DNA of 39,408 nt from the NCBI GenBank assembly GCA_031264185.1, contig JAISEL010000058.1, forward strand, positions 1 through 39,408. The letters run 5' to 3'. How positions within the stretch are numbered: the first letter of the stretch is position 1; every line of letters begins with the position of its first letter. This document shows positions 7,801 through 33,130 of the stretch, in pieces. The translations under genes were made by a program, and so were the position numbers. This stretch comes from Deltaproteobacteria bacterium. Lineage in GTDB: Bacteria > Desulfobacterota > Desulfarculia > Adiutricales > Adiutricaceae. The notes under the pieces were generated by a model. The model made no database searches and had not been told where the DNA came from. It was given only the letters and a program-made list of their open reading frames with translations.

Positions 7801-10800
7801 TCAGGCTCCGGCCGCTGCGGCCTGAGCTTTAAAAGCGTCCATTTTCTCTTTCCAGCTGGCCACCTCGGAAGCGGTTAGAATGTCCACCGCTCCGCCCTGA
7901 ATGTCGCCGCCGAACGTCTCGGTCCTTTCTTCCAGAAGCCCCTCTAAACTTAAATAGACGGACTTAAGCTTATCCAAAAGCTCCCCGTCCGGCTGCCACA
8001 GTTCCCGGCTGGCCGCTTCCAGAAGACGCCGTCCCATCTCCTCTAGAGCGTAGGGATTATGCTTTTCAAAAAAAGCCCGGTTTTCCTCATTCAAAAAGAA
8101 AGTTTCGGTAATGCCGTCGAAAATGCCTTCATCGACTGCTTTAGCCGTAGCCTGCCAGCCGTAGGCATTGCCGACCCGCCTGGCTATTTCCTGGGCCCCT
8201 TTGTAGCCGTGGTTTTTCTGACCGGCTATCCAGGCCGGGTTTAAGAGTCTGGTTGCGGCCGACCGGCTTATTTCCTCAGTTAAATCGCGGACTTTTAAGG
8301 CTTTGGCATTGCGGGCGTCGCCGCAGTAATTTTTTACCGGCCTGTTTTGAATGGCCTCGCAGGCTAAGGCCAAGCCTCCCTGGGTGCCGAAATAGCCCCC
8401 GCAGCCTAAAAAATCATCGGAATCGGAATTAAGCTTCAGGAAGTTGACGTCCACCCGGGACAAGGCGGCCTGAAAAGCCCTGGGGGCCAGTTCCCCGAAT
8501 ACCCCTTCCCCGTAGGCGTAAGAGCCGTGCTGAAGATAGATGTCCTTCAAATCCTCCTTGTCCCGCCAGGCTGAAGCCATGACAGCCAGATAGACGCCCG
8601 ACAGGCACGATCCCGGCGGGGAGGCGAATATGCGGTACGTCGCCCGCCGGAAGGCTTCCTGACTCCGGGGATCGGCTTTGGACGCAGCCAGGTTTTCCAG
8701 AGTGTGCTTGCGGACAAAATTTTTCTCAACCGGTTCGTCCAGACCGGCTGCTTTCAAAACAGCCCGGTCCAGCTGATCGACCGTGCCGGAAAAAGCGTCC
8801 CGCATAATTCCGGAAATGCGGACGGTCAGATCGATTCTGGGGCGGCCCAGCTCTTCCAAAGGAATGACTTCCGTGCCGATCAGGAGGCCCGAACCGGAGT
8901 ACCTGGGTTTTAAGCCCATCAAATAAAGCATCTGGGCCAGATCCTCTCCGTCGTTCTGGAGCAGATCCGAACTGATCCAGAAAAAAGCCACGCTCTCGGG
9001 ACAGCGGCCTTCTTCCTTTAAATGTTTGGCAACCGTTGCCTCGGCTAAGGAGCTCCCGACTTTTAAGGCCGCCTGAGTCGGCAGTCTTCGGGGATCCTGG
9101 GTGTAGAAATTGCGGCCGGTAGGCAGAACGTCGGCCCGGCCTCGCCATAAGGCGGCCGAAGGGCCAGGCGTAATATAGCCGCCGGCCTGGGCGTTCATAA
9201 GACTGTCCAGCTCCCGGCTGGCCCCGGCCCGCTCCAGGATGTCTTTGAGTCTGCCGGCCAGCTGGGTTATAAACTCCCCGTCCCCGGGTTTCCGGCCCAG
9301 ACTTTTCTCGGCAGCGGCGGCCAGGTCGCCGCTTATGTTACCGCTGTCCAGAACAGACGTGACTATCTTAATGACTTCCCCGTCAACTTTGGCCAGAATT
9401 TCAAAACCCGAAAGACCGGACCCGGAATCCGCCGCTCCCGGGTCATTTAAGATTTTCTCAAAATCAAAACCCATTTCCCCGGCCAGCCAGGACCTGAACG
9501 AGACCGCCTCGCCGCTTTCAAAGCGCAGAATAGTTGCGATCATCCTGGCCAGTTTCTCTTTTTCCGGAATTTCCCCCAGAATGTGGAGCCCATCTTCGGT
9601 CTGGCTTTGAGAGATCAAAGCCAGGTCCTGTCTTAAGGCGTAGGAAAGCTCCTCGAACTCCCCGTCAGCAGGCAGATTATCAAAGCCTAAAGTTCTGGCC
9701 TTTTGCCGGATAAAATCCTCCAGCTGCTCCCGTCTGCCCCGGTCCTGGGCTCTCGTCCTCTGGGTCAGCAGATCGCTGATTTCGGCCCAGGGACCGTAAA
9801 GCTCAGTGCCCTTAAGACCGGGCGGCATATGGTCAACTAAGGCGGCATAGGAGCGTCTTTTGGCCGTCAGGCCGTCTCCGGTCGCTCCGGCCGCGAAAAT
9901 ATAGAGATTGGGCAGTTCATGGATGGCCAGATCCGGCAGACATTCGGCCGACAAACCCGCCCCCTTGCCCGGCAGATACTCCAAAGAACCGTGGGTACCC
10001 ACATGGATAACGGCCTGAGCCCCGAACCCCAGAGGATCTTCCAGCCACCGGTAAACAGCCAGATACTGGTGGGGCGGCGGAATCAAGGGATCCTGGAGGA
10101 TCCGGCAGACCCGCCCGTCACAGCGGCTGCCGGCGCAGCCGCGTTTGGGCTGAACCGTAATGACGCAGTTGGGGCCCAAAGGAAGGCCGGAGACAATTAT
10201 CTTATCCCCGTAAACCATGGACGGCGGCACTTCGTCTATGGTCTCTCCGGGCGGCCGGCCCCAGGCGGCCTCCAGCTGATCCTTTATTTTTTCCGGAAAC
10301 GTCTCATACCACCGGGCGTAGCTGTCAAGAGGCAAAAGAGCCAGAGCCCCGCCTGATTCCACTATCTCCGGAGCCGAAGTCCACCTGAATTCGGAAATGG
10401 CTTTTTTGGCCATAATGGTTTCCATCAGCTTTTCGCCGCTCTCAGGCACCTCAAGGCGGTATCCGGCTTTTTTCATCTCCCGGCCTATCCGGACCACCGA
10501 TTCGGCTGCGTCCAGTCCCGAGGCCGTGCCTACTGTGGCTTCAACCGAAGCGCAGGGATTGCTGTGGAGGACAAAAGCTATTTTCCTGTCCCGGGGCGGC
10601 GTTCTTCTTAAATCAATCCACCTGGCAATTCTTCCGGCCAGACGGGCAATCCTTTCCGGATGAGCCTGGCGGCAGGAATCTTCGCTGTCATCGGCGCCTC
10701 TGACCGTCCCTCCCACAAAAAACGGCTCTATAACCCCTTCAAATTCGGTCAGGGTCATAGTCCAGGCCGCTTCGGCCCCCATGCCCCGGGGATTGTTTTC

Positions 10801-20521: not shown

Positions 20522-20998
20522 TTAGTTAGCTGACTTTTTTATAACGCCAACTCTGGTCGCAACCGCTATTTTTAAAGGCTGAAAATCACGCACAGAAATA
20601 TTTTTAGTTAAATCAACCGCTTTTCCGTTTATTTGAGCAGTTACTTTCGTAATGGCGATACTATCGTCGACGGAATCACTTTCCAAAATGCCGGTGCCGT
20701 ATCTGGTCGCCTCTGATCCATTGAAAACACCGCCTTCCGGGTCTTTAAGAAACTCTATTCTCCCAAAATTAGTTTCTACGGTCAGGTTCGTCATTCCCTC
20801 AGTCCCTGACAGATTCATTCCCTGGGTATCAACAGTAAACTGATAGGCAAACATGCCCTGATTGACAAAGACAGAATTTGAATTCCAAATTTCCAGACTG
20901 CCTGGATCGCTTGATTGCTGACCTTGAACTGAGGCAGGGTAAAAATTGATTGAAAGCAGCATAATGACAAACAGAAACACCGGTAGTAATTTTTTCAT
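20522..20998 (-). CDS. Small secreted protein, unknown
   Basis: The 158-residue protein has a clear Sec signal peptide (MKKLLPVFLFVIMLLSINFY, likely cut after SVQG or nearby) and no lipobox cysteine. The mature part is rich in Thr, Asn, Val and Gly with alternating polar and apolar residues (MTNLTVETNFGRIEF, SIAITKVTAQINGKAV), suggesting a beta-sandwich. GGAGAG precedes the ATG by about 6 bases. It lies about 200 bases downstream of the polytopic membrane protein and shares the AT-rich composition of the island. No family was recognised. Confidence 0.7.
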   Translation of the reverse strand: MKKLLPVFLFVIMLLSINFYPASVQGQQSSDPGSLEIWNSNSVFVNQGMFAYQFTVDTQGMNLSGTEGMTNLTVETNFGRIEFLKDPEGGVFNGSEATRYGTGILESDSVDDSIAITKVTAQINGKAVDLTKNISVRDFQPLKIAVATRVGVIKKSAN

Positions 20999-22048: not shown

Positions 22049-22840
22049 TTATTCCGCTGTTAATTCCATATTAATGGCCTTTTTTAATCTGACCAATACA
22101 ATTAATCCAAATATAAGCATAGACAAACTTATCAGGGTGGTGGGGTAATAGCCAAAAATATGACTGCCACGATTGTCGTTCCTGAAAGACTCCATTATAA
22201 ATCTCAAAAGCCCGGAGCAGAAGAGATAAAGGCCGGCAATCAGCCCTCCGTGGTTTTTGAAGTAATTTTTTTTCGAGGCCCTGACCAGCAAAAAACTTAA
22301 GGCCAAAAGGCAGACCGACTCCATCAGCTGAGCCGGCCAAAGGGGTACGCCAGAAGGGGCCTGAGAGCTGGCCGGAAAAACAACAGAAATCAGGGTATGG
22401 GGTGAGGTTTCCCTTCCGTAGCAGCACCCGGCGAAAAAGCAGCCTATCCGGCCCACTCCCTGACCCAGAGCTAGCGATGGGGCTATAATATCAGCTGCCG
22501 GCCAAAATTTTAATCCATATTTTTTCAATAAATACGGTGAGGCCAGCACAGCCACAATGGGCCCGCCCTGGAACATCAGACCGCCTCTCCAGAAAGCCAG
22601 CATCCTGGAAATCGGGAAACCTGAAAACAAATGCCAGTTAAAAATGACAAAAAAGATTCGGGAGCCCATTAAGCCGATTAAAACGACACAAATGCTAAAA
22701 TTTAATATATTTTTAGGATTAATATTTTTTGAAGGAGCTGATTTATATATCATAAATAAGGCCGAAGCGACGCCAAATGATACAAACAGCCCGTAAAAAT
22801 TTATGACCAGATGATTGAATAATATATAGTGCGGCAGCAT
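22049..22840 (-). CDS. lgt: Prolipoprotein diacylglyceryl transferase homologue (Lgt family)
   Basis: The 263-residue integral membrane protein belongs to the Lgt family, which transfers diacylglycerol from phosphatidylglycerol to the lipobox cysteine of prolipoproteins. Family marks are MFQGGP near residue 85, GQGVGRIGCFFAGCCYG near 127-143, and the PLWPAQLMES block, with about seven membrane spans. The GCCYG form is that of the divergent Lgt branch. Where E. coli Lgt has the essential histidine in the FHGG motif, this protein has FQGG. The ATG at 22840 starts 5 bases after the stop of the upstream gene, which suggests translational coupling. The upstream neighbour carries a lipobox, so this may be a dedicated accessory Lgt. 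The housekeeping copy is presumably elsewhere. Confidence 0.85.
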   Translation of the reverse strand: MLPHYILFNHLVINFYGLFVSFGVASALFMIYKSAPSKNINPKNILNFSICVVLIGLMGSRIFFVIFNWHLFSGFPISRMLAFWRGGLMFQGGPIVAVLASPYLLKKYGLKFWPAADIIAPSLALGQGVGRIGCFFAGCCYGRETSPHTLISVVFPASSQAPSGVPLWPAQLMESVCLLALSFLLVRASKKNYFKNHGGLIAGLYLFCSGLLRFIMESFRNDNRGSHIFGYYPTTLISLSMLIFGLIVLVRLKKAINMELTAE

Positions 22841-22844
22841 GGCA

Positions 22845-23615
22845 TCAGTTAAAGTATGAGTTTTCCAGCTCTCTGACAAACCATTCTTCAATCAGCTGCT
22901 CTTCTTTGCTTAATGAGTAGCCTTTTAAGGAACTGACGACCTTGTCCTTATCGGCCTGACTTAAAGCCCTCCATTTTTGAGTATATTCATTTTTCAGGTC
23001 CGCATCCTCGTCCCAGATGACATGGAGCCGCTCATGGGAAGATACGGTTTTCATTGATCTTTTCTTGCCAGGAGCCACCCCTAAAATATGGTTAACTTTC
23101 CCGGCCGAAATAAATTTACCGTCTTTTAAAACAATAATTCCATCAGCGATTAGATATAAAACTAGCTGCAGTTCATCGTAAGTAAAAATATCTATACTTT
23201 TGCTGTTTATCCAGGAACATATCTGGTCTATGCTGTAATGAAAACCCTGGATTCCTTTTTCAAACCTTTCCAGAGAAACTTCTTTAGTAATATCATTTGT
23301 AAAAATGGCAATGTTATAAATATGACGGGCTAATTTAACAGTATCGTTATAATATAATTCATAGGTGCGATTTTTATATTTCCAGGCCGAATTCACCAGA
23401 GCATCAATTTCATCGTTAGAATCATAAAAGATTCTATGAGGGTACTTAGGATCGTCCTGGTCTAATCTATCTGCATACTTATCCCAAAGCACACTGAATT
23501 TGTCCTGCAATGAGCCATTTGCATCAACGGCAATTCCGGCTCTGCCGGTAAAAGTATAAAGGCTGCAGGCAATTAAAACAAGAAAAAAAGAAGCAAATTT
23601 TAGAACATATTTCAT
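22845..23615 (-). CDS. Putative HExxH zinc metalloprotease-like lipoprotein
   Basis: The 256-residue protein starts with a hydrophobic leader (MKYVLKFASFFLVLIACS) that contains a lipobox-like LIAC with Cys17. The C-terminal part has HERLH at residues 194-198, an HExxH zinc-binding signature, followed 45 residues later by EEWF (Glu243 or Glu244) that could supply the third ligand as in gluzincins. The middle is mostly helical with many Tyr, Asp and Lys. No known peptidase family was recognised, and an HExxH match alone can be accidental. It is followed directly by the Lgt homologue, which supports lipidation. The start has only a weak AAGG sequence upstream. Confidence 0.65.
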   Translation of the reverse strand: MKYVLKFASFFLVLIACSLYTFTGRAGIAVDANGSLQDKFSVLWDKYADRLDQDDPKYPHRIFYDSNDEIDALVNSAWKYKNRTYELYYNDTVKLARHIYNIAIFTNDITKEVSLERFEKGIQGFHYSIDQICSWINSKSIDIFTYDELQLVLYLIADGIIVLKDGKFISAGKVNHILGVAPGKKRSMKTVSSHERLHVIWDEDADLKNEYTQKWRALSQADKDKVVSSLKGYSLSKEEQLIEEWFVRELENSYFN

Positions 23616-23781: not shown

Positions 23782-24672
23782 TTATCGCAGCATCCCTATG
23801 TCGCTGACTAAATCAGAAGCGTTAGTGGCCAATCCTTGAGCTAATGACAAAAGATTGGTGACCGGGGAAAGAAGTTTCTGAGCAATATTTTCCGGTCCGC
23901 CTCCTGAGATGGCACCGGTGGCGCAGGAAGTTAATCCTGCCGGAGAGGCCATAGACTGAACTTGTGACCTAATTTGATCAAGAAGTCCGGTTACCTCTGT
24001 GACCAGACTGCCGGCTTCTCTGACCAGCTGATTTGCTCTCGGAACTATACTTCTCCGGAGGTCAGCCATGTCGGCATCTGAAAATTCACCGTTGTCAATA
24101 GCTTCTCTGATGTAAGCCCTTCTGGCATCATTCACCCGAGACTGGGCGCTTTTCAAATCAGAAATCTTATCGCCGTCGGCCCCGGAAATCATCAATTCAA
24201 CTGCAGCCATCTGAGAGTTTCCGGCCTCTAAAGCCAGCTTGGCTCTGGTAGTGCAGTTGCCCGCAGCCCAGATATCTGAATACTCCTGGCTGGTTTGCTG
24301 GTACCTCTGAGCAGCTGCCCTCAACTGATTGGCTAAACCGGAGGAAACAGACCCACTGGCAGCTGCCTCACTTTTACCTCTGTTAATCAGCTGCGTAAGC
24401 GACCTTTCCTGGGAAGTAAGACTGTTTTTCACCTGTCTTTCCCTGGCCCAGTTTACATTGGGAGCAGGTTTGGAAGCTGTTCGCTTCGGGGCTTTAATTG
24501 TGTCCAAGGAAGCCATAGACATGTCGGCGCTAACTCCACCAGCGTCAGAGGCGACCTTGTTTGATTGCGCCTCTAAGCCGTCCAAAGCCCAGCCAACTGC
24601 CGCAAGAACCATGAGAACAACGATAACCCATAAAAGGTTAACACTTTTGACTAAATTCTTGGCAAAATTCAT
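23782..24672 (-). CDS. Membrane-anchored helical protein, unknown
   Basis: The 296-residue protein has one N-terminal transmembrane segment (LLWVIVVLMVLAAVGWAL, residues of about 13-31) and then a long, mainly helical exported part. The latter is rich in Ala, Ser, Gln and Arg (ANQLRAAAQRYQQTSQEY, LVTEVTGLLDQIRSQVQ), with two isolated cysteines (NCTTRA, TSCATGA) that could form a disulfide. GAGG lies about 6 bases before the ATG. It begins 20 bases after the CHAT gene, so it is likely cotranscribed and could be a periplasmic-facing partner of the CHAT protein. It lacks the TRDLVF tag. No family was recognised. Confidence 0.7.
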   Translation of the reverse strand: MNFAKNLVKSVNLLWVIVVLMVLAAVGWALDGLEAQSNKVASDAGGVSADMSMASLDTIKAPKRTASKPAPNVNWARERQVKNSLTSQERSLTQLINRGKSEAAASGSVSSGLANQLRAAAQRYQQTSQEYSDIWAAGNCTTRAKLALEAGNSQMAAVELMISGADGDKISDLKSAQSRVNDARRAYIREAIDNGEFSDADMADLRRSIVPRANQLVREAGSLVTEVTGLLDQIRSQVQSMASPAGLTSCATGAISGGGPENIAQKLLSPVTNLLSLAQGLATNASDLVSDIGMLR

Positions 24673-24692: not shown

Positions 24693-27600
24693 TTAAAGAC
24701 CAAAAATATTCCCAGCAGCCCAATAAAAAGGATGCTTATGGACATAAAGTTTAAGAGTTTCTTGTGTTCCGTCTTGTGATGTCACTGTGAATGTATCACC
24801 AACATTATCCAAATAATCATTCTGAGCTTTTCTCAAAGCTTCAGCGGGATCTTTATTATCAGTCCCAGTATTTAAGTATTCCAGGAACTTTCCCATTATT
24901 ATACGAGTCGATTCGTCGCTAACAAACCATAATGTACCAAAAACATTTTTAAAATTTTTTCTCATAAAAGTGTCAACTAAACAGACTTGATCGAAACCAG
25001 GATTCCATTCTGCATCTTTTATTGCTTTCCGTTCTTCATCTGAAATATCAGAGGTCTGCTCAGAATCAATTTCATCATCAGTCAACACTTTGTCAGCGTC
25101 ATCTTTTCTTAGTTTTTTGTAGGCAGCGTGAAGTATCCGTGGATTTATACTGACTGCTGTATTACAAGCTGACAAAATAGCCAATGTAGCATTTTTAAAT
25201 ATTTCATCTTCTAATTCTGTAATTTCCCTTAATGTTAATGCACCATTGTCCAGAATTTTCTTGTACGCAATTGGAACAGTCTTTGGATTATCGTGATTAT
25301 ATGCCATATAAATAAAACTATTTAAATATGATGAATTTGGAAGAAACTCCTCAACATAAGGTATAGTGCTGGGACACCTATCATAGGTTTCCTTGAATTT
25401 CTTTAATCTTTCTAAATCTGTTGTTGGAGGCTTAATCCTCCCATCTAACATTTTTTTGCACCGAGTATAGTCCGCCTTAACTTCCGGAGCTGTAAGACCG
25501 TGAGTTGCGAAATACATAACATTATAAGGATGCTTAATTATTTCATCCAAAAATGCCTTCTTTGTTGCCTTTTCTCTAATCAAGACCTTACTTATTTTTC
25601 TGGCGTTATTGTAATAATTATAGACATTTTCTGCTTCAACTGCAGCATTCACCAAATCAGCCTGCCGCATAGCTATATTCTCTGGATTTCCTACAGAAAT
25701 AAGGCTATCATAAACATTACCCACATCTTTTTTCTCAAATGAAGCATTATTAAAAAATGAAAGCCTAGTAAAAATAAGTGTTTTTTCTGATACTAAAAAC
25801 ACAGGGTCATTTCCATCTTTGCTTCTTCCAATAACTAGAGCAGCAAAAGGAACCGACGAAATTATTTTAGTTGTCAATAAGTAAATTCTTTCTTTGCCTT
25901 CTACCAATGACCTTATTGGCGCATATAGGTATTCATTCAATTTTTCTAAAGCATCAATTGCAACAACGAAATAATCTTCAGTTTCTTGATTCGATGGTTT
26001 TTCAAGAGTACCAAAACCTCCGATATATTTCATTGTATAATCTTCATAGATAGCTTTAAAAAGTTGTTCATAACTAATATTTACATCGACAATATTTAAT
26101 TGATCATTTGTAATAACTAATATTTGTAATGAATTTTGCAAAGGAAAATATTGAACAATCGCTTCATTATTATTCAATTTTTTCTGTAAAGATGGAATAT
26201 CTATTGTTTCTGACGTTTCAAAGATAACTATGTCATTCGAGTAAGTTTCTTTCCAATTAGCTAAATCTTTTTTGAACTCTTCTGCAGTTTTTATTGCAAT
26301 TTTTGATGCTACTTTATAAGCATCAGAAGCCCTTTTATCATTTTTTTGACCATCTGATACAGCCTTTGCATTGGCTACTGCATTTTCTGCTTTTTTCAAT
26401 TCTGCCGCTTTTTGATAAATTTTTTCATAATTTTCTTGCTTTAAATTATCATTGAAATTTAAATTACTCATCTGTAAGTTGGCTTTTACGATCTCTTTCT
26501 TAAAAATTTCATCATATTCCATCTGCTTAATTAAATATTTTTGATCTTTAGTTTTCTTAAATAATAGAGAGCATACTTCAATCGCCTGTGAAAATAAATC
26601 TTCTTTATCATTCAAATATGTCAAAAGTAATTCTGGATTTTCTTCAAGTCCCCTGATAGACAACACTATATCAATCGCTTTAGTATATAATTCTTCAGAC
26701 TCTACTAAATCACCTCGCTCATTAGCCGCAAATGCTCGACCCTGGATGGCTTTCCAGAGTGATTGGGTAAGCGAGAACTTGACCGCTAAATCTTCGGCCT
26801 TTTTAAAATAATTCTCGCTTTCAACCAATGCTCTATCAGCCGATAAATCTATCTTTGTAATCCCTTTTGAACTACCTGAGTCAAAACCGATAGATGATCC
26901 GCTGGTAAGTTGATCTTTTTTGGTGTTATTTGGGATATTGGGGATATTGGAAATATTAGGGGCTGACGGAATTTCATCTTCTTCATCATCTTCAAAAACC
27001 AGATCCCTAGTCCTCCTTACAGGTTTTGCTGTATTTTGATATAAAAGACCTAATTGTATATAAACAAGAGCCGTCTGAGAGGCCAATTCCTGCCGTTCAA
27101 ATATCTCCTTAGCTTGAAGCAACTTCTGTAAAGCGGCCCCATAATTTTTGTTCAGTGAGTCTATAGCAGCCAAGCCCATTAAAGTTGATCCTACTCCCTC
27201 AAAAAACTTAACTTCCTGATAAATCGACAAGGCCTCAGTATAATCCTTTAAAGCTGCATCTTGATCGCCATTCAACCTTTCCAGCAGGGCACGGTTGCTG
27301 AGAGCGATAGCTTCATCTCTCCGATTACCAACCTCTTTCGCTATACCATAGGCACTATCAAAACTAGCTATAGCCTTAGGCCACTGGCCAGCTGTTTTAT
27401 AGACAGCTCCAATATTGTTAAAATCAATTCCCTCATTTCTTCTCATTTTGAATTCTCGTGCCTTCCCTTGTGCCAGATTCAAAGTATCCAATGCTTTAGG
27501 CAACTGACCCATTTCCCAATATATAATTCCGGTATTGCTTAATGATTCAACTATGGCAGTTTTATCGTTAACATTCTCCGCTTCTTTCGTTGCCTGTTCA

Positions 27601-28211
27601 AGATTTTTTAACGCTTCCTGATACTGACCCAGATTACCTTGGGCTAAACCTAGTGATGTTAATAGAGCAGGCATCTTTTCTTTAGGATAATTTTTATTTT
27701 TTAATGCTCTGCTGTATGATTCAACAGCTGATCCGTACAGTCCCATTGCTCTGTAGGCATCACCCTGAACTGCCAAATAATTTGCAATAACTTCAGGGCT
27801 CAACTTCACTTTAGCCCCAAACAATCTGTCAATAGAGTCAGCTTTGACCATGTGGTTTAACGCTTTATCAGCGGAAAAAACGATATTTTCTGTAAACTTT
27901 ATCAAAATCTCAGGAGATACTGTCCCCGGTAAATCCAAAGCTTCTTCGTAAAGCGAAATTGCCTCTTCAAATCTTTCTTGCTGTATTCTTATGACGGCTA
28001 CGTTACCAAGTATTTGCCTAGCTTCATTGTATTTTTTCATTTCTCTTAAAATACTAACTACTTCTAAAAACTCATCAGCTGCAGCATCTAGATTGCCTAC
28101 TTTGAAATATTCCTGAGCTTTTAGAAACGGAGTCTCATAGTCCTGAGCCTGAACATGACTTGTAATAATCGACGATATTACGCAAACAATTATGACATAT
28201 AAATATTTCAT
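24693..28211 (-). CDS. Exported TPR-CHAT protein (caspase-like cysteine protease homologue)
   Basis: The 1172-residue protein has an N-terminal Sec signal peptide (MKYLYVIIVCVISSIITSHV, cut after VQA or nearby). About ten TPR-like helical hairpins follow from residue 25 to 390 (for example NTGIIYWEMGQLPKALDTL). Residues 399-413 are the tag RRTRDLVFEDDEEDE, then a low-complexity NIPN linker and a second helical region. The CHAT domain spans about 690-1172, with His904 in YFATHG and Cys1016 in LSACNT forming the catalytic dyad and PFYWAAGNIFGL at the end. The 112-residue His-Cys spacing and a later acidic loop show insertions relative to compact CHAT domains. Known CHAT proteases are mostly cytoplasmic, so export is unusual. 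It is flanked by tag-bearing DUF4384 proteins. AAAGGTG precedes the ATG. Confidence 0.9.
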   Translation of the reverse strand: MKYLYVIIVCVISSIITSHVQAQDYETPFLKAQEYFKVGNLDAAADEFLEVVSILREMKKYNEARQILGNVAVIRIQQERFEEAISLYEEALDLPGTVSPEILIKFTENIVFSADKALNHMVKADSIDRLFGAKVKLSPEVIANYLAVQGDAYRAMGLYGSAVESYSRALKNKNYPKEKMPALLTSLGLAQGNLGQYQEALKNLEQATKEAENVNDKTAIVESLSNTGIIYWEMGQLPKALDTLNLAQGKAREFKMRRNEGIDFNNIGAVYKTAGQWPKAIASFDSAYGIAKEVGNRRDEAIALSNRALLERLNGDQDAALKDYTEALSIYQEVKFFEGVGSTLMGLAAIDSLNKNYGAALQKLLQAKEIFERQELASQTALVYIQLGLLYQNTAKPVRRTRDLVFEDDEEDEIPSAPNISNIPNIPNNTKKDQLTSGSSIGFDSGSSKGITKIDLSADRALVESENYFKKAEDLAVKFSLTQSLWKAIQGRAFAANERGDLVESEELYTKAIDIVLSIRGLEENPELLLTYLNDKEDLFSQAIEVCSLLFKKTKDQKYLIKQMEYDEIFKKEIVKANLQMSNLNFNDNLKQENYEKIYQKAAELKKAENAVANAKAVSDGQKNDKRASDAYKVASKIAIKTAEEFKKDLANWKETYSNDIVIFETSETIDIPSLQKKLNNNEAIVQYFPLQNSLQILVITNDQLNIVDVNISYEQLFKAIYEDYTMKYIGGFGTLEKPSNQETEDYFVVAIDALEKLNEYLYAPIRSLVEGKERIYLLTTKIISSVPFAALVIGRSKDGNDPVFLVSEKTLIFTRLSFFNNASFEKKDVGNVYDSLISVGNPENIAMRQADLVNAAVEAENVYNYYNNARKISKVLIREKATKKAFLDEIIKHPYNVMYFATHGLTAPEVKADYTRCKKMLDGRIKPPTTDLERLKKFKETYDRCPSTIPYVEEFLPNSSYLNSFIYMAYNHDNPKTVPIAYKKILDNGALTLREITELEDEIFKNATLAILSACNTAVSINPRILHAAYKKLRKDDADKVLTDDEIDSEQTSDISDEERKAIKDAEWNPGFDQVCLVDTFMRKNFKNVFGTLWFVSDESTRIIMGKFLEYLNTGTDNKDPAEALRKAQNDYLDNVGDTFTVTSQDGTQETLKLYVHKHPFYWAAGNIFGL
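26973..27017 (-). other. TRDLVF-acidic tag in the CHAT protein
   Basis: The bases encode RRTRDLVFEDDEEDE at residues 399-413, between the TPR block and the rest of the protein. It is one of five copies of the tag in this cluster. A flexible linker containing NISNIPNIPN follows about 10 residues later. Confidence 0.9.
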
Positions 28212-28228
28212 TTTTCACCTTTACAATT

Positions 28229-28267
28229 AAAAGTCGGGAAACTAGCTTTAAATATAATTCCCCGACT
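28229..28267 (-). terminator. Hairpin between DUF4384 gene B and the CHAT gene
   Basis: On the minus strand AGTCGGGGAA (28267-28258) pairs with TTTCCCGACT (28241-28232), ten pairs with one wobble, followed by TTT. It fills most of the 72-base gap before the CHAT start. It could lower CHAT expression relative to gene B, acting as a partial terminator or processing site. Confidence 0.6.
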
Positions 28268-28283
28268 CAAAAATCACTATTAA

Positions 28284-28991
28284 TTACTTATGTTTGAGTT
28301 CATAGAAGGCCACAAATGGCTCTCCGGCTTCTCCGGCCTGTGTTTTTGTATTTACTTCTTCTTCCTCCTCATCGTCAAAAACCAGATCTCTAGTTGTCCG
28401 CTTTGTAGTCGTTTCAGATTCAAGATTAGCTATCTCAGCCGAATTTTTCTCAACTTTCCCAGCTTCTGCTGCGGCCTCTGCCACAGCAGCATCAAGCTCT
28501 GGAATTTTATTGGTAGAAAAAACGACCATTATAGTCTCTGTACCCGGAGTATCGTCAAACCGGAAATACCCCTTAATGGGCACAGAATGGTTTTCATTTT
28601 TCTTGACAAAATTATCCATACCAGTCGCTGAACTTGGAAACAGAATTGAATACTGACCAGACGCCATTTTGGCTAACCAATAAGCATAACCATCAGCATT
28701 TGTCGTATACCTAAGCTTGATCTTGTCTCCAGAAACAAATTCATGCGACAAAGGCACTGAAGAAGTTTCACCATCTTTGGTCAAATCCAAAGTAGTCTTA
28801 AAAGAGATAACCTCTGGATTTTTGATTCCAGCTGACTCTGCTTCTTTGGCAACCTTGTCGGTTTCCTCTTCTTCGTCATCAAAAACCAGATCCCTCGTTG
28901 CTGCCGACACCCCTTGGAGAAAGATTCCACCTAAAGAGAGGCCGAACACTAGTAACAAAAGGGCCAGTAGCAGTTTAAACTTATTTTCCAT
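28284..28991 (-). CDS. Secreted DUF4384-like protein B with two TRDLVF tags
   Basis: The 235-residue protein has a signal peptide ending GVSA at residue 30. The predicted mature N-terminus is then A31-T-R-D-L-V-F followed by acidic residues, so the first tag (31-43) is exposed after export. Residues of about 55-165 fit a DUF4384 domain: SGDKIKLRYTTNADGYAYWL, YSILFPS, FRFDDTPGTETIMVVF. DUF4384 domains are often found with caspase-like proteins. The second tag is at 197-212 (KRTTRDLVFDDEEEEE), followed by the tail VNTKTQ and EPFVAFYELKHK, shared with protein A. The ATG at 28991 follows AAGGAG by 7 bases. An in-frame extension upstream has no signal-like start. The gene precedes the CHAT gene by 72 bases. 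Confidence 0.85.
   Translation of the reverse strand: MENKFKLLLALLLLVFGLSLGGIFLQGVSAATRDLVFDDEEEETDKVAKEAESAGIKNPEVISFKTTLDLTKDGETSSVPLSHEFVSGDKIKLRYTTNADGYAYWLAKMASGQYSILFPSSATGMDNFVKKNENHSVPIKGYFRFDDTPGTETIMVVFSTNKIPELDAAVAEAAAEAGKVEKNSAEIANLESETTTKRTTRDLVFDDEEEEEVNTKTQAGEAGEPFVAFYELKHK
28356..28403 (-). other. TRDLVF-acidic tag, C-terminal copy of protein B
   Basis: The bases encode KRTTRDLVFDDEEEEE at residues 197-212. The codons differ at several synonymous positions from the other four copies. Confidence 0.9.
28863..28901 (-). other. TRDLVF-acidic tag, N-terminal copy of protein B
   Basis: The bases encode ATRDLVFDDEEEE at residues 31-43, directly after the predicted signal peptidase site. 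This is the only copy without a second basic residue before T-R-D. Confidence 0.9.
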
Positions 28992-29511
28992 AGATTTACT
29001 CCTTAACGCTGCGCTAACAGCAATGGATTGTGAACTAATAAACTCAGAAGAAAAAGCCAGATTTATCCATTCTGACCTTAACCGACAATTCAAATCTACC
29101 CAAACTGCAAGACCAATTTCTTAAACCTGATTTCTGGCCTTGTCATCCTCATTCCACCAGATAATCAAATGGCCATATGATTGAACATAATTTTGCCTTA
29201 GCAAACTTTAATTTCGAGAGCCACATAACTCAAATACACAATGTGTTTTCCTACTCATACTACTGACCATTTGTCGATCTTTACCCGCGCCTAGTTTGTA
29301 CCTATAAAAACCAATCTTTGAAAAATTGGTTCATCTGCCTTAGTTATCGGTTTTTAAGACTCTTCGGCTTCAAAAAAACTAAAAATCATGACTCGTTGCA
29401 CCACCATGCTTTGAAATTTTGCCACCGCCATGATTTGATCAACACTTCAACTTTATCCATTGACTCTGTTTTATGGTGATTGTTTTAAAAGCAAGGTTAT
29501 CAATAAAGATA
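28992..29511. other. 520-bp gap inside the cluster, no gene seen
   Basis: The gap between the small secreted protein and protein B has no coding frame with a start site. It contains a possible terminator at 29306-29331 and presumably a promoter for gene B, but no clear -35/-10 pair stands out. Confidence 0.5.
29306..29331 (-). terminator. Weak intrinsic terminator downstream of small secreted protein
   Basis: On the minus strand AACCAAT (29331-29325) pairs with ATTGGTT (29315-29309) around a 9-base loop, followed by TTT. The stem is AT-rich. It would separate the first two genes of the cluster from the rest. Confidence 0.4.
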
Positions 29512-30006
29512 TTATTTTGCCAAGCTTTTAAATTTATCATACAGTAACTTTAAATTAGTTCCGGTGACTGTATTTTTTTCAGCCATTTCCGTGTCAACCT
29601 TTTTTTCCTTAATAGTCACTGTCCCTGAAGAGAATACCTTTCCCTCTTTACTCGACAGAACAAAAGAATACTTTCCTGTACTAGGTAATGGTATATCCTG
29701 TAAAATCAAAACATTCCAATCAGGATTTACTGCTACTTCCTCCCTGTGAAGCAACTCCTGTACGCCTTCGACTGAATCGTTGTAAATAGACACCACTGCT
29801 TCCAGGACCTTGAATGAATCTTCATTGCCGTTTACAAAGAGACAGGAAACCTGGTTAGTGTCAAATTCGGTAGCCGGTTCAATTGGATTATATTGATCAT
29901 CAATTTTAAGACAGAACTTGGTTTGGCCTCCCTCAGCCCCAAAAACAGGCAAGCACTGGAAAATCAAACCAAACACTATAGTTACTTGCCATAATGTCTT
30001 GCTCAT
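29512..30006 (-). CDS. Small secreted protein, probable beta-sandwich, unknown
   Basis: The 164-residue protein has a Sec signal peptide (MSKTLWQVTIVFGLIFQCLP, likely cut after VFGA). The mature part has two cysteines (FCLKIDD, SCLFVNG) about 30 residues apart that could form a disulfide, and an immunoglobulin-like strand pattern (WNVLILQDIPLPSTGKYSFV, GKVFSSGTVTI), ending in a charged helix. AAGGG lies about 10 bases upstream of the ATG. It follows protein A by 75 bases and is likely cotranscribed. It lacks the TRDLVF tag. No family was recognised, and a role as adaptor in the envelope complex is only a suggestion. Confidence 0.7.
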   Translation of the reverse strand: MSKTLWQVTIVFGLIFQCLPVFGAEGGQTKFCLKIDDQYNPIEPATEFDTNQVSCLFVNGNEDSFKVLEAVVSIYNDSVEGVQELLHREEVAVNPDWNVLILQDIPLPSTGKYSFVLSSKEGKVFSSGTVTIKEKKVDTEMAEKNTVTGTNLKLLYDKFKSLAK

Positions 30007-30081
30007 AATTATCTGCCCTTTCAGATATTTTGGTCATCAGAAAATTTAATTAATCCTGATACCGACAAGTGGGACAACTCT

Positions 30082-31320
30082 CTACTGATGCTCCAGCTCA
30101 TATGTAGCTACAAATGGATCACCTTCGGCTGTAACCTGGGTTTTTGTGTTGACGTCTTCTTCGTCTTCTTCTTCAAAAACAAGATCCCTGGTAGTCCTTC
30201 TTTTTTTCTCATGGCCGTCAACCAGTCTGGCAACCAATTTTGAAGATCCTGTCTTGTCACCTCTGTCGGCCAATTTAATTGCCTCATCTAGAGTTGAAAT
30301 TCTTTCAGGCCCCAGCATACAGACTATTGTTTCAGTCCCCTTATTGTCGTCAAAACGCCAGGCACCTTTAGCCGGGATTGTGTATTCTTTGTTTTTCTCA
30401 ACTGAATTATCCTGACCGGCCTTGGAATTAGGATATAAAACCTGATACTCCCCGCTTGTACCTTTACTGAGCCAATAAACATAACCTGGGCGACTTGCTG
30501 AAAAAATAAGCTTTACCCTGTCGCCACTTTTAAATAACTCATTAGGCAAAACTGTTTTTGTCTGACCTTCTCTATTCAGTTCTACCGTAGCCTTGACTGC
30601 AATCTTCTCTCCTGAGGCATTAGCCGCAGTCGTCCCTTCAACCACAGGACGTTGTGCGTCTTCTTCCTCGTCTTCATCATCAAAAACTAAGTCCCTGGTT
30701 GTCCTTTTAGTTGGTTGGTCATTTTGAGCATAATATTGATCTTCATTTTGTTGCTGATTTTTGTTCAGGTTCCCATCGTTATTTCTTTTCTGATTTTTGT
30801 TCTGCTGCAATAGCTGACTTTGAGGTCTTTGATAGTTGTTGTTGGCCAAATTGACTTTTTCTGGAATACCTACCGATACTTGAATTCCAGGATTGCCACC
30901 TCCAAACATGGTTGGAGGTGGTCCCTGGCCATAACGGGCATAAGCTCTCTCATAACCCTGCCTCATATGAACACCCGCATAGTTATCCCATACGACATAT
31001 GAATTGTACCTTGTTAACCTACATCTCATAAATGTATTCTTAAAACCGTTTGCCCAGACCACAGTGATGTTCCAAAGAGACTGATCGCCATAATAGTTTG
31101 GTCCTATGTAGACCATTGTCTGCTGGTCTAGAGTGGTGTTTTGGATCAAATTTTCACTAACATAGTCAGGATAATAAGACGGAGCGATATATACTTCTGT
31201 TATATCCCCGCTGGAGAGATTGGTTAACATAAAATTGAGTCTACCCTGAGCAATACCCAAATCAACGTTAATCAGCAGGAACAGCCAGATTATGACTAAA
31301 GAAACAAAGACTTTCCGCAT
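30082..31320 (-). CDS. Secreted DUF4384-like protein A with two TRDLVF tags
   Basis: The 412-residue protein begins with a signal peptide (MRKVFVSLVIIWLFLLINVD, cut near GIAQ). Residues 25-135 form an unrecognised beta-rich domain with many Tyr and Trp (ITEVYIAPSYYPDYV, WNITVVWANGFKNTF). A Gln/Asn-rich linker follows (LLQQNKNQKRNNDGN), leading to the first tag at 205-221 (KRTTRDLVFDDEDEEED). A DUF4384-like domain lies at about 235-350 (SGDRVKLIFSASRPGYVYWL, YQVLYPNS, WRFDDNKGTETIV). The second tag is at 374-389 (RRTTRDLVFEEEDEED), followed by the tail VNTKTQ and DPFVATYELEHQ, as in protein B. The ATG at 31320 follows AAGGAG by 7 bases. It is the first gene of the cluster. Confidence 0.85.
   Translation of the reverse strand: MRKVFVSLVIIWLFLLINVDLGIAQGRLNFMLTNLSSGDITEVYIAPSYYPDYVSENLIQNTTLDQQTMVYIGPNYYGDQSLWNITVVWANGFKNTFMRCRLTRYNSYVVWDNYAGVHMRQGYERAYARYGQGPPPTMFGGGNPGIQVSVGIPEKVNLANNNYQRPQSQLLQQNKNQKRNNDGNLNKNQQQNEDQYYAQNDQPTKRTTRDLVFDDEDEEEDAQRPVVEGTTAANASGEKIAVKATVELNREGQTKTVLPNELFKSGDRVKLIFSASRPGYVYWLSKGTSGEYQVLYPNSKAGQDNSVEKNKEYTIPAKGAWRFDDNKGTETIVCMLGPERISTLDEAIKLADRGDKTGSSKLVARLVDGHEKKRRTTRDLVFEEEDEEDVNTKTQVTAEGDPFVATYELEHQ
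30154..30201 (-). other. TRDLVF-acidic tag, C-terminal copy of protein A
   Basis: The bases encode RRTTRDLVFEEEDEED at residues 374-389. The Leu codon (CTT) and acidic residues differ from the other copies. Confidence 0.9.
30658..30708 (-). other. TRDLVF-acidic tag, internal copy of protein A
   Basis: The bases encode KRTTRDLVFDDEDEEED at residues 205-221, between the Asn/Gln linker and the DUF4384 domain. It uses GAC and TTA where most other copies use GAT and CTG. Confidence 0.9.

Positions 31321-32108: not shown

Positions 32109-33130
<1,022 letters not shown>

Follow-up and report, generated by a model that had tools for sequence, protein, structure and literature searches.

A peptide tag shared by an apparently exported TPR-CHAT protease and its DUF4384 partners, a candidate recognition and processing site

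Why should a protease and the proteins encoded next to it carry the same short peptide? The question is raised by a locus on contig 103 of a 4.4 Mb genome, analyzed here as a window of 39,408 nucleotides, in which TRDLVF followed by at least five acidic residues occurs in five in-frame copies on the minus strand, one in a TPR-CHAT protein and two apiece in a pair of DUF4384 proteins (Table 1). In the named genome collection the locus has one relative, a contig of a Deltaproteobacteria MAG. The order of genes on the minus strand is large DUF4384 protein, 164-aa protein, small DUF4384 protein, TPR-CHAT protein, 296-aa protein, 256-aa protein and an Lgt paralogue. The signal peptides were called by eye, and the export of the proteins of the locus is a prediction. 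To our knowledge, few natural substrates of bacterial CHAT and caspase-like proteases have been identified, and no role has been assigned to DUF4384; the passages of the literature that deal with this domain state no function for it.

Table 1. Tags and genes of the locus (positions in the window).
Feature	Position	Strand	Description
Tag 1, RRTRDLVFEDDEEDE	26973..27017	-	CHAT residues 399-413, loop between helical repeats
Tag 2, ATRDLVFDDEEEE	28863..28901	-	small DUF4384 protein, predicted mature N-terminus
Tag 3, KRTTRDLVFDDEEEEE	28356..28403	-	small DUF4384 protein, between DUF4384 core and C-terminal strands
Tag 4, KRTTRDLVFDDEDEEED	30658..30708	-	large DUF4384 protein, between N-terminal domain and DUF4384
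Tag 5, RRTTRDLVFEEEDEED	30154..30201	-	large DUF4384 protein, between DUF4384 and C-terminal strand
TPR-CHAT protease, 1172 aa, putative signal peptide	24693..28211	-	Pfam TPR_12 2.7e-36, CHAT 6e-30
Small DUF4384 protein, 235 aa, predicted exported, ATG start	28284..28991	-	PF14326 1.2e-12
Large DUF4384 protein, 412 aa, predicted exported, extra N-terminal domain of unknown kind	30082..31320	-	PF14326 2.2e-13
164-aa protein, predicted exported, untagged	29512..30006	-	no Pfam match; similar proteins in L007, L036
296-aa protein, predicted membrane-anchored or exported, untagged, adjoins CHAT	23782..24672	-	counterparts beside CHAT in L034, L036, L037, L039
256-aa protein with HERLHVIWDE motif, predicted exported, untagged	22845..23615	-	counterparts in L034, L036, L037

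The CHAT match (PF12770) reaches 105 bits against a cut-off of 24, and the catalytic residues H904 (ATHG) and C1016 (SAC) are invariant in six aligned CHAT proteins. With this domain and His-Cys dyad the protein is predicted to be a proteolytically active CHAT peptidase. The two DUF4384 proteins score 48.2 and 50.5 bits with PF14326 (cut-off 27). The start of the small DUF4384 gene was placed at ATG 28991 rather than at the mechanical TTG 29093, and with this start tag 2 begins at most two residues from the signal-peptidase site predicted by eye. The 164-aa gene lies between two DUF4384 genes in a relative as well (L007/L034).

TRDLVF is the sole 6-mer that occurs five times in the three proteins. 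Among 2000 shuffles that kept the composition, none yielded a third copy of any 6-mer made up of more than three residue types. The sequence-only reading of this DNA had located the five copies correctly and had taken the peptide rather than the DNA to be conserved; the codons indeed differ between the copies (AGG/AGA, GAT/GAC, CTG/CTT/TTA). Its consensus [KR]-x-T-R-D-L-V-F was somewhat too strict: the core is present in all five copies but the [KR]-x-T part only in four, since the N-terminal tag of the small DUF4384 protein reads SAATRDLVF. The general form of the tag in this system is [TSN]-R-D-L-V-[FY]-acidic. A sixth match to the pattern in the genome, on contig 107, lies outside all listed open reading frames of at least 100 aa.

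As had been proposed, the tags bracket the domain in both DUF4384 proteins. The tag of the CHAT protein was said to separate the TPRs from the protease half. It does follow the TPRs but it is not a simple divider: repeat-like helices resume at about residues 456-545 and the Pfam CHAT match begins at 754, so the tag lies inside the helical repeat region. In the AlphaFold model of the small DUF4384 protein (mean pLDDT 72) the tags are at or beside the stretches 16-30 and 196-204 with pLDDT below 50, outside the folded core, and the conserved terminal strands behind the C-terminal tag are ordered. Foldseek gave no match below E 0.001 for this model, so no fold was assigned, and no PDB relatives of the protein were found by sequence. 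The AlphaFold model of the CHAT protein was discarded (pLDDT 37).

The specificity of the tag was examined with a DNA pattern for R-D-L-V-[FY]-acidic, which assumes no homology. It matched 20 times in 63 genomes of the class, and 18 of these matches fall in genes for CHAT or DUF4384 at loci of this type; the remaining two lie on the strand opposite recA (G001) and opposite a nucleotidyltransferase-like gene (G021), and were read as coincidences. With the pattern reversed, the 63 genomes gave six matches. In 395 genomes of the phylum a longer pattern matched nine times, every time at the locus (reversed-pattern control 0). The outcome that the sequence-only reading had named as refuting its proposal, a tag common in unrelated proteins, is not what these scans show; the tag is tied to the CHAT/DUF4384 locus.

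Five relatives have the system: G006 (also L007/L034), G015 (L036), G018 (L035), G055 (L037), which belongs to another family of the class, and G038 (L039), where the contig stops inside the CHAT gene and so shows no DUF4384 gene. The tag is conserved across three families of the class (f1, f3 and f5), and 20 tags were collected for comparison. Among the CHAT orthologues the mean pairwise identity is 0.86 in the tag, 0.24-0.33 in the adjoining loops and 0.30-0.46 in the CHAT regions. Among the DUF4384 proteins it is 0.95 in both tags, 0.53 in the core and 0.30-0.48 in the linkers; taken over both kinds of protein, the flanking linkers mostly show 0.24-0.38, and the value of 0.48 belongs to the acidic stretch behind the C-terminal DUF4384 tag. 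Wherever the DUF4384 neighbor is tagged, the CHAT protein is tagged too. This includes L037, in which the core reads RDLLF (SRDLLFED), and L035, where the CHAT protein is not orthologous. The large DUF4384 protein of L035 is orthologous and tagged. Its CHAT protein (968 aa) shows 21% aligned identity to that of the window, gives no hit with it at 1e-20 and carries TRDLVYEEDE right behind the signal peptide, at the mature N-terminus. Homologues of this second CHAT protein abound in seven further genomes of the family, none of which has a match to the pattern.

A search of the 395 phylum genomes with a profile of the tagged DUF4384 proteins led to a second system, found in G278 and G337. The DUF4384 proteins of these genomes (PF14326, 37.2 bits) carry the tags GSKDIV[LM]DD and GKKDI[VI]LE, and the next gene but one encodes a caspase (Peptidase_C14, PF00656, 5.8e-19; nearest PDB relatives metacaspase-1 and -4) with a single GAKDIVFED or GSKDIVLED. 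The system was found at 13 loci in three families of the phylum (f59, f112 and f98), all 13 tagged, and its operon also has a gene of a TPR protein. The tag has the form [GASKRT]-K-D-I-[VIT]-[LMFVT]-[DE], to which the N-terminal motif GAKA[IL]FDS is a looser match. All 15 matches of a G-x-K-D-I-V-hydrophobic-acidic pattern in 46 genomes of the order are at this locus type (control 0), and the only three caspases found in 297 phylum genomes at 1e-25 are all tagged. The domain tree puts the two tagged DUF4384 sets into different clades (support 0.96 and 0.998), neither the sister of the other. The second tag system is thus likely to have arisen independently of the first, although the deep nodes of the tree are weak.

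The position of the caspase tag is of special interest. Metacaspases cut themselves between the p20 and p10 subunits after Lys or Arg. Alignment places the tag within an insert between the strand of the catalytic Cys and the start of p10, and this insert is absent from other DUF4384-linked caspases. DTC together with G[SA]KDIV in the insert is present in six of six aligned caspases of the system, and DTCYS in 13 of 13 proteins. Judged from their sequences, these caspases have the acidic residue before the Cys and the basic linker residue that metacaspase-like self-processing would need. According to the passages of PMC7206013 concerned, the plant type II metacaspase AtMC4 cleaves itself at Lys225 in the p20/p10 linker, and its Asp137, two residues before the catalytic Cys as in D-T-C here, lines the pocket. 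AtMC4 also processes a partner, Propep1; the passages do not note an identical word in enzyme linker and substrate, and the first system described here has a CHAT and not a C14 protease.

What is the tag for? We consider the chances about even that it is where the operon's own clan CD protease recognizes and processes its targets. This would be the simplest account of a tag that occurs once in the protease and two or three times about the domain of its partner, in two protease families. The single copy of the protease, in a flexible linker, would be its own zymogen-processing or cis-inhibitory site, and the copies of the secreted DUF4384 partner flank a folded domain. Upon activation the protease would nick itself and trim DUF4384 at the mature N-terminus and ahead of the last strands. 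Few positions of the tag vary as little across both systems as the basic residue. Most likely the scissile bond would be directly behind this invariant R/K, a P1 assignment borrowed from C14 relatives and not from CHAT. It is consistent by analogy with the basic P1 of metacaspases and orthocaspases, the prokaryotic orthocaspases cutting behind basic residues according to the relevant passages of PMC6426788. The sequence-only reading had suggested a cleavage or docking site for the CHAT protease. That tag and protease belong together is strongly supported by the specificity of the pattern scans, the conservation in orthologues, the non-orthologous tagged CHAT and the mirrored C14 system; dependence on CHAT as such proved too narrow, since the second system uses Peptidase_C14.

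Some features do not suit cleavage. The conservation of DLVF on the prime side and the long acidic tail go beyond what a P1-driven protease usually needs, and GAKA[IL]FDS of the second system fits the tag only loosely. A strict word at the scissile bond would also be unusual for CHAT, because Craspase, the best-studied TPR-CHAT protease, cuts non-conserved sites chosen by position and not by sequence (PMC11106740).

The main rival of processing is docking, to which we assign a smaller though appreciable probability: LVF-acidic peptides would sit uncut in the groove of the TPRs, supplied by DUF4384 in trans and by the protease's own loop in cis. The TPR block 256-335 just before the tag, with 0.56 identity against 0.30-0.46 over the CHAT regions, is the most conserved region of the CHAT protein after the tag itself. 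The TPRs of the window match structures of kinesin light chain TPRs, which bind short acidic motifs (PMC6214655), W-acidic or Y-acidic ones among them; this protein is eukaryotic and has no protease, and the likeness is mechanistic only. Electrostatic binding would fit the long acidic tails, and the TPR protein of the second operon would have its place. Nevertheless, the p20/p10 insert in which the second protease has its tag is the classical position of self-cleavage, the hydrophobic position in that system is variable (L/M/F/V/T) and its acidic tail is short, and the CHAT protein of L035 has other TPRs but the same tag. It is possible that cleavage and docking to the TPRs act together.

It is rather improbable that the tag is a structural or assembly strand which completes the DUF4384 fold or links subunits by strand exchange, with no recognition by a protease. 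Such a role would suit the place of the C-terminal tag just ahead of the terminal strands, which are conserved and have an ordered structure in the model, and many untagged DUF4384 proteins likewise end in such a strand. The tag itself lies in low-confidence segments of the model, its conservation is far above that of the DUF4384 core (0.95 vs 0.53), and it is missing from the other DUF4384 proteins examined yet present in two unrelated proteases. Segmental duplication or chance with no function behind the copies is very improbable: four of the five copies are in two paralogous DUF4384 proteins, but the CHAT copy and that of the non-orthologous CHAT are at non-homologous positions, the core survives in divergent genomes and across the three class families while the linkers change, and no repeats of this kind arise in the shuffles.

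Operon-encoded substrates are already known for clan CD proteases, for example where a CHAT or caspase protease has a bacterial gasdermin as its partner. Pfam does not place DUF4384 among the gasdermins, and the present proteins look periplasmic. Craspase (TPR-CHAT, Csx29) with Csx30 is likewise a TPR-CHAT protease with a dedicated partner; in contrast, the present proteins are apparently exported, and no shared tag is described for Craspase, with its non-conserved cut sites (PMC11106740). A Pfam scan of 19 window proteins found neither Cas7-11/gRAMP nor another Cas protein, which speaks against assigning the locus to type III-E CRISPR/Craspase. DUF4384 and caspase relatives do associate, even in one chain, in orthocaspases with fused DUF4384 (PMC8283722, PMC6426788); the passages in question report no tag, and DUF4384 is here a separate protein with predicted export. 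Apart from a weak BovA match, the PADLOC hits were to generic TPR and caspase profiles, and no known anti-phage system was recognized.

A literature search for the tag strings found no published description. The word shared by enzyme and partner, and its recurrence in two protease families, appear to be undescribed within the searchable literature. The data suggest that the tag is a built-in label by which the protease may recognize, and probably cut, both itself and its partner. A broader proposal, which we hold with somewhat less than even confidence, is that exported CHAT and C14 proteases arrived, each by convergence, at a private word [RK]-D-[LI]-V that marks their own processing linker and the flanks of DUF4384, the whole forming a periplasmic caspase-type switch in which the protease is exchangeable and the word is kept. 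With a shared word of this kind the sequence by itself would tell which protein is the substrate, where it is probably cut and where the protease processes itself. The word also offers a general search rule, namely to look for words common to clan CD proteases and their operon neighbors. In other DUF4384-protease pairs a comparison of 8-residue words gave nothing comparable among the matches listed, the few high scores there being mostly homologous catalytic motifs or isolated matches; TRG-like resemblances from this comparison were dropped. A search of viral contigs with the tagged DUF4384 profile brought up no relatives. Plasmids gave only two weak tblastn matches to the domain, and the match on an annotated Deinococcus plasmid has no protease among its listed neighbors.

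Several minor observations were made. Five genomes from some genera of the same family (G030, G027, G024, G012 and G013) have many TPR-CHAT homologues each (7 to 13 scored), without the tag pattern. A CHAT protein without DUF4384 context (L166, 811-4041) has a lone ARDLLMEN at residue 612. A distant DUF4384 protein (L105, 166-984) has an N-terminal NAKALFYDSG, to be compared with GAKALFDSG of the second system, and its caspase partner is untagged. The HERLHVIWDE motif of the 256-aa protein resembles that of a zinc protease; metal binding is doubtful in the G055 homologue, where the first His is replaced by Gln (NQERWH). The genome has four Lgt matches; the paralogue in this gene cluster (window 22049-22891) keeps its place there in L034 and L036. 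The gene run also includes, downstream, a protein with an IrmA-like domain (window 20522-20998; PF18673, 2.1e-12). A perfect (AG)26 tract is found at 32111-32162 of the window, about 790 bp upstream of the start of the large DUF4384 gene. In L007 a (CT)23 tract (9248-9293) precedes the orthologous gene at a distance of about 720 bp. These tracts are possibly a phase-variation element of the operon.
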